NCBI GenBank assembly: GCA_015492245.1
Contig: WGFM01000023.1
Coordinates: 1-64,000, forward strand
Reading direction: 5' to 3'
From: Deltaproteobacteria bacterium
GTDB lineage: Bacteria > Desulfobacterota > GWC2-55-46 > DRQE01
DNA: 64,000 bases
Numbering within the stretch: the stretch's first letter is position 1; each line of letters opens with the position of its first letter. Position numbers and translations under genes: made by a program. Below are positions 25,178 to 42,039 of this stretch, piece by piece. Below the pieces are notes generated by a model. The model was not told where the DNA came from and made no database searches. It saw only the letters and a program-made list of their open reading frames with translations.

Positions 25178-26212
25178 ATGCTCGATGTTGCAATACTCGG
25201 GGCAAGTGGGTACACAGGCATTGAGCTTTTGAGGATACTCTCACGGCACAGACATGTGAGGGTGGTCCATGCAGGCTCAAGGCAGTACAGTGGCAGGAAG
25301 GTGGAAGAGGTGTTTCCGTTCCTCAGGGGGGCCTGTGGGGGGCTTACCTTTGGAGACGATGAGCCCTCTGGCATAGAGGCAGAGCTTTTCTTCTGCGCAC
25401 TGCCACATGGGGCCTCCATGGATGTGGTAGCGGTGCTTCTGGAAAGAGGCAAGAAGGTGGTGGACCTCAGTGCAGACTTCAGGCTCAAGGACAGGCTCCT
25501 GTACGAAAGGTGGTACAGGGAGCACACCGCCCCAGGGCTTCTCAATGAGGCCGTCTATGGTCTGCCAGAGTTCTACAGGGAAGAGATAAGGGGCGCAACC
25601 CTTGTGGCAAACCCCGGCTGTTACCCCACGGGCACCATCCTTGCCCTCCTGCCTCCGCTCAGGGAGGGGCTTGTATATCCCAGTGGTATAATAATAGATG
25701 CAAAGAGCGGGGTATCCGGGGCAGGAAGAAAGGCAGCCCTTGAGACCCAGTTTGTGGAGGTCTCAGATGGGTTTCATCCCTACAGGGTGCTTGCCCACAG
25801 GCACACCCCTGAGATAGAAGAGGTGCTTTGTGTCCTTTCAGGGGAAAAGCTCAGGGTGGCCTTTGTGCCCCATCTTCTGCCTGTGGCAAGGGGCATTCTT
25901 ACCACCATATATGCCACACTCAAAGAGGGGGTCTCCACAGAGGATATGAAGAGGGTATACAAAGAGTACTACAGTAAAGAGCCCTTCGTAAGGGTTATTG
26001 ATGGAGGAGGCCTTCCTGATATAAAGCATGTGCGGGGTTCCAACCTGTGTGATATAGGTTTCAGGGTCGATGAAGAAAGGGGGCTTGTGGTCATCGTCTC
26101 TGCCATAGACAACCTTGTAAAGGGTGCCAGTGGACAGGCCGTGCAGAACATGAACATAATGTATGGTTTTCCAGAGACAGAGGCACTCGATGTCCTGCCA
26201 CTCGGCCTCTGA
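25178..26212 (+). CDS. argC: N-acetyl-gamma-glutamyl-phosphate reductase
   Basis: Third step of arginine synthesis: NADPH reduction of N-acetylglutamyl-phosphate to the semialdehyde. GASGYTGIELLRIL is the Rossmann NADP site; the catalytic Cys is in NPGCYPTG (about residue 148); KSGVSGAGRK and HRHTPEIEEVL are further family markers. 344 residues, as expected for the long (type 1) form. No other arg gene is adjacent. Start preceded by GAAGGAG. Confidence 0.96.
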   Translation: MLDVAILGASGYTGIELLRILSRHRHVRVVHAGSRQYSGRKVEEVFPFLRGACGGLTFGDDEPSGIEAELFFCALPHGASMDVVAVLLERGKKVVDLSADFRLKDRLLYERWYREHTAPGLLNEAVYGLPEFYREEIRGATLVANPGCYPTGTILALLPPLREGLVYPSGIIIDAKSGVSGAGRKAALETQFVEVSDGFHPYRVLAHRHTPEIEEVLCVLSGEKLRVAFVPHLLPVARGILTTIYATLKEGVSTEDMKRVYKEYYSKEPFVRVIDGGGLPDIKHVRGSNLCDIGFRVDEERGLVVIVSAIDNLVKGASGQAVQNMNIMYGFPETEALDVLPLGL

Positions 26213-27767: not shown

Positions 27768-27797
27768 TTGACAGTGGTTCTCATTTCATGCTATAGT
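27768..27797 (+). promoter_or_regulatory. Promoter of the RelE-type toxin-antitoxin pair
   Basis: TTGACA (27768-27773), 18-bp spacer, TATAGT (27792-27797). A leader of about 20 nt follows, with a G-rich ribosome site (GGGGGG, then AAGG) before ATG 27822. Confidence 0.55.
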
Positions 27798-29372: not shown

Positions 29373-29414
29373 ACCATCCTGGTTAGTATAATTTCCTTCC
29401 TTTCTCTAATCTGG

Positions 29415-29420
29415 TATAAT
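29415..29420 (+). promoter_or_regulatory. Extended -10 (TGGTATAAT) before the uvrB fragment
   Basis: TGG-TATAAT (29412-29420) lies nine bases before the ATG, exactly as at the intact uvrB gene, so the fragment kept its promoter layout although most surrounding bases differ. Confidence 0.45.
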
Positions 29421-29429
29421 TGATTCCTT

Positions 29430-29609
29430 ATGGGCACGAAGATCTTCGAGATGGTAACCCAGTTCACCCCGCAGGGAGACCAGCCCCGTGCCATAGGGGA
29501 GCTGGCAGAGGGGGTAAGAGAGGGACTTGAACACCAGGTGCTCCCTGGGGTTACAGGAAGTGGCAAGACCTTCGCCATGGCAAAGGTCATTCTCCATAAG
29601 CCTGCATAG
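29430..29609 (+). pseudogene. 5' fragment of uvrB (partial duplication)
   Basis: 59 codons. Bases 29451-29591 match 33241-33381 inside intact uvrB with only two differences (29545 and 29574), including the Walker A GVTGSGKT. After VTQF...AMAKVI the sequence departs and stops at TAG. The first seven codons differ from those of uvrB but have equal length, so both copies share a start position. No transposase or inverted repeat flanks it. The product would be an isolated P-loop stub without function. Confidence 0.85.
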
Positions 29610-33201: not shown

Positions 33202-33210
33202 TGGTATAAT
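33202..33210 (+). promoter_or_regulatory. uvrB: Extended -10 promoter of uvrB
   Basis: TGGTATAAT with no good -35 17 bp upstream. The ATG comes nine bases later, so the transcript is nearly leaderless; no Shine-Dalgarno is seen. The rest of the 220-bp gap back to the divergent regulator shows no gene and no LexA-type box that I can recognise. Confidence 0.55.
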
Positions 33211-33219
33211 TTACTTTCC

Positions 33220-35220
33220 ATGAGTAGCAGTCTCTTCAGGATGGTAACCCAGTTCACCCCGCAGGGAGACCAGCCCCGTGCCATAGGGGAGCTGGCAGAG
33301 GGGGTAAGAGAGGGACTTGAACACCAGGTGCTCCTTGGGGTTACAGGAAGTGGCAAGACCTTCACCATGGCAAAGGTCATTGAGGAGGTCTCGCGGCCTG
33401 CCCTAATCATGGCGCCCAACAAGACCCTTGCAGCACAGCTCTTCACGGAGATGAGGGAGCTCTTCCCCCACAATGCGGTTGAATACTTCGTCTCCTACTA
33501 CGACTACTACCAGCCCGAGGCCTATGTGCCCCAGACAGACACATACATAGAGAAGGATGCCTCCATAAACGACGAGATAGACAAGCTCCGCCATTCGGCA
33601 ACACACTCCATACTCACAAGGAGGGATTGCATAGTGGTGGCGACGGTCTCCTGCATATACGGGATAGGCTCGCCCGATGACTATGCCACCATACACCTCT
33701 ACCTGGAAAAGGGCATGGAGACGCCGAGAGATGTCATGCTAAAAAGACTCGTTGAGATGCGGTATCAACGGGTGGAGCAGGACTTCTGGCGGGGCACATT
33801 CAGGGTAAGGGGCGATACGGTGGAGGTCTTTCCCTCACACGAGGGAGACAGGGCAATAAGGATAGAGTTCTTCGGTGATACCGTAGAGGAAATATCAGAG
33901 ATAGACCCCTTAAGGGGCAGAGCCAGAAGAAGACTTGCAAAGACATTGATACACCCTGCAACACACTTTGTAACAACAAGGGATAACCTTAAAAGGGCCA
34001 TAGAGTCCATAAGGGATGAGCTTAGGGAGAGGCTAAAGGAGCTCAAGGAAGAGGGCAGGGAGGTTGAGGCAAAGAGGCTCGAGGAGAGAACCCTCTACGA
34101 CCTGGAACTGCTCGAGGAGATGGGCTATTGCCCTGGTATAGAGAACTACTCGAGACACCTCTCTGGCAGGCTTCCAGGTGAGCCGCCGTACACGCTTCTG
34201 GACTACTTTCCAGAGGACTACCTCCTTTTTGTAGACGAAAGCCATATAACCATACCCCAGCTCGGTGGCATGTACGAGGGAGACCGCTCCAGAAAAAAGA
34301 CCCTCGTTGACTACGGGTTCAGGCTGCCAAGTGCGCTGGACAACAGGCCACTTAAGTTCGAGGAGTTCGAGCAGAGGGCAGGCCAGGTCATATATGTATC
34401 CGCCACTCCTGGTGAGTATGAGCTACGGAAGGCACAGGACAGGGTGGTGGAACAGATAATACGGCCCACAGGGCTTGTGGACCCAGAGGTGGAGGTAAGG
34501 CCAGCAAGGGTGCAGGTGGACGACCTCATGGGAGAGATTAAGAGACGCGCAGGAAGGGGCGAGCGTGTGCTCGTAACAACCCTTACAAAACGGATGGCAG
34601 AGGACCTCACCCAGTACTATCAGGAGATGGGCATAAGGGTCAGATACCTCCATTCAGACATAGACACCCTCGAGAGGGTGGAGATACTGAGGGATCTAAG
34701 GCTCGGCAGGTTCGATGTGCTCGTTGGAATAAACCTTCTTAGAGAGGGGCTCGACCTTCCAGAGGTCTCGCTCGTTGCCATACTCGATGCAGACAAGGAG
34801 GGCTTTCTGAGGTCAGAACGCTCACTCATACAGACCTTCGGCAGGGCCGCAAGGAATCTCAACGGAAAGGTAATCCTCTATGCCGATACCATGACAGGTT
34901 CGATGAAGAGGGCCATAAGAGAGACGGAGAGAAGGCGCAGGCTCCAGATGGGGTACAACCGAAGGCACGGCATAACACCGCGGACCATAAAGAGCAGGAT
35001 AAAGGACATAATGGAGAGCATATACGAGGCAGACTACTACACAGTGAAGACTGCCCGCGAAGAACCTGCCGAATACATAGCCCCTCCGGATATACCGGCA
35101 AAGATAAAGGAGCTGCGCCACAAGATGCACCAGGCCGCAAGAAGGCTCGAGTTCGAGCGTGCAGCAGAACTGAGAGACAGGATAAGAGAGCTCGAAAGAG
35201 AGCAGGTATTGACAGGGTGA
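33220..35220 (+). CDS. uvrB: Excinuclease ABC subunit B
   Basis: DNA-damage verification helicase of nucleotide excision repair. 666 residues as usual. Walker A GVTGSGKT (40-47), the beta-hairpin region [17 protein letters not shown], helicase motif [13 protein letters not shown], the conserved [16 protein letters not shown], the motif [11 protein letters not shown] and the C-terminal UVR domain ([19 protein letters not shown]) that binds UvrA and UvrC are all intact. Start at ATG 33220; MVTQFTP begins seven residues in. The first 50 codons are also found, duplicated, near 29430. rimO follows 51 bp later. Confidence 0.97.
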
Positions 35221-40508: not shown

Positions 40509-40537
40509 AGTATAACCTTTATTTTTGTTCACTTCAA
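40509..40537 (-). promoter_or_regulatory. ruvX: Promoter of ruvX-mltG
   Basis: On the minus strand TTGAAG (40537-40532), 17-bp spacer, TATACT (40514-40509), then six bases to the start codon. It is back-to-back with the mraZ promoter, the two -35 boxes being about 24 bp apart. Confidence 0.6.
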
Positions 40538-40560: not shown

Positions 40561-40589
40561 TTGACAAAACCCTTTTTGAGGAATATAGT
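40561..40589 (+). promoter_or_regulatory. mraZ: Promoter of the dcw (division and cell wall) cluster
   Basis: TTGACA (40561-40566), 17-bp spacer, TATAGT (40584-40589). Transcription is expected to start near 40596, just upstream of the three MraZ-box repeats. Confidence 0.75.
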
Positions 40590-40600
40590 TACCACATTGG

Positions 40601-40630
40601 TGGTATAAAGTGGTATAAAGTGGTATAAAT
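40601..40630 (+). promoter_or_regulatory. mraZ: MraZ operator: three tandem 10-bp repeats TGGTATAAA(G/T)
   Basis: Three head-to-tail copies, 40601-40610, 40611-40620 and 40621-40630, identical except for the last base. The 10-bp period is one helical turn. MraZ proteins are known to bind three or so direct repeats of TGGG-type (E. coli) or AAAGTG-type (mycoplasma) boxes at 10-bp period between promoter and start codon of their own gene; here the junctions read AAAGTGG. Binding would block the dcw promoter. Each copy also resembles an extended -10 element. Confidence 0.8.
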
Positions 40631-40664
40631 GTATGAGAAGGTGGTTTGGAAGGGAAGGTTTGCG

Positions 40665-41099
40665 GTGTTCAGAGGCAGGTTCGAGCATACCATTGACCCC
40701 AAGGGTAGACTCAGCATACCTGCGCGTTTTCGTGAGACTCTGAAGAAGCGATACGACAACAGACTCGTTGTAACCACCTATGATGAGTGCCTGATAGCCT
40801 ATCCGTACCATGAGTGGAGAACCCTTGAAGAGAGGATAGCAGGGCTCCCGGAGTTCAACAGGGATACACGGGTATTCCTGCGCTTTTTCTACTCCAGTGC
40901 AACCGATTGTCCAATTGACAAGCTTGGCAGAATCCTTATACCCCAGCCTTTAAGAGAAGATGCAAAACTCGAAAAGGAGGTGGTGCTCGTAGGGGCATTC
41001 AAGCAGTTCGAAATATGGAGCAAGAAGGTCTGGAAGGCAGCAGAATCCTCTGCTTCGAGAGAGGAAATAAGCAGCATGCTGGAGCGTCTGGGTATTTAA
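40665..41099 (+). CDS. mraZ: Transcriptional regulator MraZ
   Basis: Two SpoVT/AbrB-like DNA-binding repeats (DPKGRLSIPARFRE and DKLGRILIPQPLRE) that assemble into a ring and repress the dcw operon. The start is placed at GTG 40665, giving the conserved FRGRFEHTID beginning, 144 residues, and a strong GGAAGGGAAGG eight bases upstream. An ATG at 40629 would begin inside the third operator repeat without a ribosome site. First gene of the dcw cluster; rsmH follows after 4 bp. Confidence 0.93.
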   Translation: MFRGRFEHTIDPKGRLSIPARFRETLKKRYDNRLVVTTYDECLIAYPYHEWRTLEERIAGLPEFNRDTRVFLRFFYSSATDCPIDKLGRILIPQPLREDAKLEKEVVLVGAFKQFEIWSKKVWKAAESSASREEISSMLERLGI

Positions 41100-41103
41100 G
41101 AAA

Positions 41104-42039
41104 ATGGAAGTAGAGCATTTACCTGTATTGAAAGAGGAGGTGGTGGACTACCTCAAGCTGATACCCTCGGGTGTATATGTTGACGGAACACTTGGAGGAG
41201 GAGGGCATACCAGGGCGATACTGGAGGCAGCACCAGACACAAGGGTTGTAGCACTCGATGTGGATGATGATGCCATAAGAAAGGTTCAAAGGAGGCTCAA
41301 AGGCTTTGCCCACAGGGTAACCATTGTAAGGGAGAACTATAAGAACATAAAGTTTGTGTTGCAAAGGCTTGGGATAGACAGGGTTGATGGGGTGGTGCTG
41401 GACCTGGGGGTATCCTCCTACCAGCTGGAAAGGACGGAAAGGGGGTTCAGCTTCATAAGGGATGCACCTCTGGACATGAGGATGGACAGACGCCAGAGGC
41501 TTACCGCCTGTGAGCTGGTTAACGAGCTTTCAGAAAGTGAGCTCGAGGGGATATTTCGGCTCTATGGCGAGGAAAGACGGGCGAGAAGCTTTGCAAGGGC
41601 CATTGTAAGGGCAAGGAAGACAAAACCCATAAAGACCACAGGAGAGCTGGCAGACATAATAATGGATACATTGCCCGAAAGACTCAAATACGCAAGGATA
41701 CACCCTGCAACAAGGGTATTCCAGGCATTGAGGATTGTGGTCAACAGGGAACTTGAGAACCTCAGGACAGGCCTCAAAGAGGCCATAGAATGCCTCAACG
41801 GTGGAGGCAGGATAGTGGTAATATCGTTCCATTCCCTTGAGGACAGAATTGTGAAGAATACATTCAAAGAGTTGGAGCAGGGCTGTGTATGCCCACCAGA
41901 GCTGCCACAATGCGTGTGCGCAAGAAGCCCCGTGTTAAGGGTTGTTACGAAAAAGGTGGTGCTCCCAAGCCTTAAAGAGGTTGAAGAAAACCCGAGGGCA
42001 AGGAGCGCAAGGCTGAGGGCCGCAGAAAAGCTGTGTTAA
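41104..42039 (+). CDS. rsmH: 16S rRNA (cytosine-1402 N4)-methyltransferase
   Basis: Methylates C1402 in the ribosomal P site using AdoMet. HLPVLKEEVVDYL at the start, DGTLGGGGHTRAIL (AdoMet loop), LDLGVSSYQLERTERGFSF, PLDMRMD, HPATRVFQALRIVVNREL and ISFHSLEDRIVK are all standard. 311 residues. A Cys cluster near the end (CVCPPELPQCVC) is the usual one. Fixed second place in dcw clusters. Confidence 0.97.
   Translation: MEVEHLPVLKEEVVDYLKLIPSGVYVDGTLGGGGHTRAILEAAPDTRVVALDVDDDAIRKVQRRLKGFAHRVTIVRENYKNIKFVLQRLGIDRVDGVVLDLGVSSYQLERTERGFSFIRDAPLDMRMDRRQRLTACELVNELSESELEGIFRLYGEERRARSFARAIVRARKTKPIKTTGELADIIMDTLPERLKYARIHPATRVFQALRIVVNRELENLRTGLKEAIECLNGGGRIVVISFHSLEDRIVKNTFKELEQGCVCPPELPQCVCARSPVLRVVTKKVVLPSLKEVEENPRARSARLRAAEKLC

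Follow-up and report, generated by a model that had tools for sequence, protein, structure and literature searches.

MraZ of Escherichia coli represses from a repeated sequence. In the K-12 promoter Pmra (NC_000913.3, upstream of b0081), TTGACA and the rest of the promoter are followed by GTGGGAAATTGTGGGGCAAAGTGGG, and three GTGGG boxes lie exactly 10 bp apart just past the −10 element and ahead of mraZ-rsmH. In Mollicutes the MraZ site is quoted as (AAAGTGKN3)3 (Fisunov 2016, cited in PMC5282649). The MraZ protein of B. cenocepacia binds a fragment with four 7-nt repeats and 3-nt spacers, which is located past the −10 element and over the start site (PMC7761207). Newer structures of MraZ are also on record (PDB 9qlg, 9qlr, 9r4j, 9sx6 and 9sz7).

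The locus described here was found in a window of 64,000 nucleotides, by which we mean the whole stretch of DNA that was analysed. Its layout is that of Pmra, with a TTGACA promoter, three boxes exactly 10 bp apart just past the −10 element and then mraZ and rsmH. It differs from Pmra in the spacers, which are GTGGGAAATT and GTGGGGCAAA in E. coli and TATAAA here, and in a GTGG at +21 past box 3, which E. coli lacks. With the Mollicutes site it shares the 10-bp period, and the AAAGTGG core fits the boxes; since K stands for G or T, the GTGT found as box 3 in six genera of the order fits as well. Its differences from that site in the quoted form are limited to the fixed spacer letters and the fourth box after a skipped position. 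Like the B. cenocepacia fragment, the locus would have four repeats in total, downstream of the −10 element and over the predicted transcription start, but here three stand in a row and the fourth follows after a skipped position, whereas B. cenocepacia has four 7-nt repeats with a 3-nt spacer. The array is an exceptionally regular example of an already known switch and leaves the known picture of dcw control unchanged. A clean, perfectly repeated and very probable MraZ operator is thereby extended to a little-studied deltaproteobacterial lineage.

The dcw promoter, the repeats and mraZ

The following features were assigned, all on the forward strand.

40561..40566, +, −35 element of the dcw promoter, TTGACA (TTGACA at 16-17 bp in 22/22 genera of the order)
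40584..40589, +, −10 element of the dcw promoter, TATAGT (promoter scoring and order comparison)
40600..40609, +, putative MraZ box 1, GTGGTATAAA, at about +5 to +14 (sequence reading, repeat search and order comparison)
40610..40619, +, putative MraZ box 2, GTGGTATAAA (sequence reading, repeat search and order comparison)
40620..40629, +, putative MraZ box 3, GTGGTATAAA (sequence reading, repeat search and order comparison)
40641..40650, +, probable fourth MraZ box, degenerate in sequence, GTGGTTTGGA, 21 bp past box 3 (order comparison)
40648..40658, +, ribosome binding site GGAAGGGAAGG (read from the sequence)
40665..41099, +, mraZ, GTG start, 144 aa, two MraZ domains (ORF and Pfam)
41104..42039, +, mraW/rsmH, the next dcw gene (Pfam PF01795, 1e-119)

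The promoter TTGACA-17 bp-TATAGT matches the consensus at 11/12 positions, and the dcw transcript is predicted to start at about 40596. A preliminary description of this DNA had placed three perfect 10-bp repeats within 12 bp of the promoter, followed by a ribosome binding site and a GTG start. This was right: the gap between the −10 element and box 1 is 10 bp, the three copies are identical, and the site GGAAGGGAAGG precedes the GTG at 40665-40667. The boxes are direct GTG(G/T) repeats with a 10-bp period, present in three perfect copies between the dcw −10 element and the mraZ start, and they span about +5 to +34 relative to the predicted start. The GTGGTATAAA triple is the sole exact tandem of three 10-mers in the 64 kb window. 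TGGTATAAA was found in five copies in the window, three of them in the array at 40600-40629, against an expectation of 0.32. An inverted half-site, TACCACATT at 40590-40598, was discarded as a chance occurrence; it was seen only in both species of the own genus and is absent from other genera.

The first gene after the array encodes MraZ (Pfam PF02381, 6.3e-34). The protein contains two MraZ domains and two DxxxR motifs, one of them at residues 11-15. It shares 41% identity with E. coli MraZ across 125 aa, DxKGR being common to both. A start at ATG 40629, which gives a longer ORF, was rejected and GTG 40665 favoured because in the sister species (G001) the extension is interrupted by an in-frame TAG. 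The gene heads a standard dcw cluster, where it is followed by mraW, a DivIC-like ftsL, ftsI and mur genes, the names of ftsI and the mur genes being taken from the translations.

Within the own genome the array before mraZ is the sole instance of GTGGNATRNAGTGG, and the pattern search returned it as the sole MraZ-type array. This restriction to one place was observed directly, as were the sequence elements themselves and their conservation. A wider MraZ regulon was considered and rejected: together with ATGGTATAAAGTGG, a near match at C32, the places with two or three mismatches came to 235 in total, compared to 231 in the reversed control. The looser GTGGN6GTGGN6GTGG occurred at three other places of the genome (control 0), all without the box spacers. 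Since the near matches were about as frequent as in the reversed control and the looser matches had no box spacers, a second operator is not claimed.

Conservation upstream of mraZ

The preliminary description had proposed looking for the same 10-bp array upstream of mraZ in relatives, and there it proved to be conserved. For the order, the regions upstream of mraZ were compared in 22 genera with one locus per genus, corresponding to 66 boxes. Promoter and array are kept in 22/22 genera, in each case with three boxes, GTGG or GTGT, that follow one another with a period of exactly 10 bp and begin 6-12 bp past the −10 element; a further genus (G010) has a weaker version with two boxes only. The −10 element is TATAGT in 20/22 genera and TATATT and TATAAT in the remaining two. 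When metagenome-assembled 'Deltaproteobacteria' were searched with the pattern GTGKNATNNAGTGKNATNNAGTGK, 29/39 relative genomes gave one match each, never two, and the reversed pattern gave 0 matches in every genome. The matches sit just upstream of mraZ, with the exception of G031, where the match is at a contig end and mraZ was not found. In other families of the phylum, examined at relaxed stringency, the best triple array had at least 10/12 GTGG letters in 57/62 regions, compared to 29/1860 in the shuffled control. The array was not found in the viral contigs searched.

Because the array is conserved upstream of mraZ in the order and the phylum and has the same layout in E. coli, it is very probably the MraZ operator of the dcw promoter, as had been proposed for this DNA. 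E. coli and most of the families sampled from the phylum have the putative operator in the same place.

Some lineages depart from the common layout. Box 3 is GTGT and not GTGG in L005, L006, L007, L009, L010 and L012, six genera of which five belong to the same family as the window. In L014, 324 nt separate the array from the mraZ start codon, which makes this leader unusually long for the order. In seven loci from other families of the phylum (L061, L064, L087, L089, L092, L099 and L104) a promoter-like TATAGT overlaps box 1 (TATAGTGG), and in these lineages the −10 element would itself lie under the bound MraZ.

A fourth box was absent from the preliminary description. GTGG was found 20-22 bp past box 3 in 16/22 genera of the order, including the own genus, and 6/22 were without it; in 5000 shuffles the mean was 0.55 and the maximum 5. 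The fourth boxes resemble the others, with an A at position 6 in 12/16 and a T at position 7 in 14/16, and that of the own genome is degenerate past GTGG. No conservation was seen at the 10-bp position between box 3 and the fourth box. Outside the order a fourth GTGG stood mostly 10-11 bp on, in 8 regions, and less often 21 bp on, in 3 regions. It is quite possible, if not yet the favoured reading, that the order has a specific layout in which three adjacent boxes are followed, after one skipped position, by a fourth that lies two helical turns (20-22 bp) further downstream. This would imply a MraZ ring with non-adjacent contacts or two rings that meet at this point, and the three-skip-one layout would offer a cheap structural test of the number of contacts between the MraZ ring and the DNA.

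Predicted action of MraZ at the array

We have high confidence in a model with a sigma-70-type promoter and MraZ bound to three boxes and a weaker fourth, hindering the polymerase and holding the cluster at a set level. Transcription would be started by TTGACA-17-TATAGT near 40596. The MraZ ring would dock on one face of the DNA at the three GTGG boxes, 10 bp apart between about +5 and +34, and would also contact the weaker fourth box two turns further on. Once docked, it would hinder RNA polymerase at the start or at the exit from the promoter, and mraZ, mraW, ftsL and the following genes would thereby be kept at a set level. The transcription start, the binding of MraZ, the repression and the contact to the fourth box are inferred. 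By analogy with the systems tested in M. genitalium (PMC8475190), Mollicutes (PMC5282649) and B. cenocepacia (PMC7761207), MraZ most likely occupies the boxes between about +5 and +34 and so keeps down the expression of the whole cluster, including its own gene. It is plausible, and not a new idea, that MraZ positioned just downstream of +1 hinders initiation or promoter escape.

The sign of the regulation was considered separately. In M. genitalium the loss of MraZ raises mraW and ftsZ (PMC8475190). In Neisseria elongata the deletion of mraZ lowered and its overexpression raised the dcw genes (PMC9395523), so MraZ acts there as an activator. The array could accordingly be a MraZ site that serves activation, or one where the amount of MraZ decides between activation and repression. 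We consider this unlikely for the present locus: its boxes follow the −10 element, an arrangement shared with E. coli and B. cenocepacia and better suited to obstructing the polymerase than to recruiting it. Repression is thus the likelier sign for MraZ here, though not the sole one, given the activation in Neisseria elongata.

Other readings of the repeats

According to the preliminary description, the boxes might double as extended −10 elements, so that RNA polymerase binds TGGTATAAA and competes with MraZ for the same letters; it had also regarded TGGTATAAT as a promoter element at 29412, 33202 and 60550. One letter separates TGGTATAAA from TGGTATAAT, and TGNTATAAT is enriched genome-wide (105 vs 29 for the reversed pattern). 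The TGGTATAAT copies are present at the three places, and also at 25684 and 42462 (expected in the window, 0.35), but for the three named copies a promoter role was not borne out, with at most 3/6 TTGACA matches at the normal distance.

The boxes of the order also spoke against binding of the polymerase. At position 10, which corresponds to −7, T was found in 0/66 boxes and A in the three own copies, and the T at position 5, corresponding to −12, is replaced in 14/66. TG.TATAAA is intact in just 28/66, so TG and TATAAT are not conserved as a unit; among the remaining boxes GTGGTATGAA, GTGGGATAAA and GTGGTATAGA are the most frequent. What is fixed is GTGG, kept in all but six boxes, together with mostly A at positions 8-10, and these are the letters of the MraZ box. 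Outside the order TG.TATAAA occurs in only 8/171 boxes, and position 5 is G as often as T, as in E. coli. The best −35 matches for the three copies have 2, 4 and 3 of 6 letters, with an unfavourable spacing of 19 bp for the first two. Since the TATAAT letters are not favoured and the three copies have no good −35 element, the resemblance to an extended −10 element is best taken as coincidental, and competition of the polymerase for the boxes is very improbable. The regions 29412-29480 and 33202-33270 both continue after TGGTATAAT with the same stretch, GATGGTAACCCAGTTCACCCCGCAGGGAGACCA, which suggests that a leader or gene start has been duplicated.

It is least probable of all, and barely credible, that the repeats work in the mRNA leader (as GUGGUAUAAA, three times), perhaps by affecting translation or RNA stability: all boxes do fall in the leader downstream of the predicted start, but in the order box 1 stands anywhere between 65 and 324 nt ahead of the start codon, the strict 10-bp spacing fits double-stranded DNA, and in several families of the phylum box 1 would be untranscribed because the −10 TATAGT overlaps it.

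Two further promoter-like sequences were seen in the window. The sole other exact TTGACA-N15-19-TATAGT genome-wide is at 27768-27797 (+). On the minus strand a promoter-like site, TTGAAG-17-TATACT with 9/12 matches, lies at 40509-40537 (−); it is partially retained in the sister species, and other genera are without it. Since the minus-strand start predicted from this site is nearly at the ruvX ATG (40502), the divergent ruvX-mltG transcript may be leaderless.
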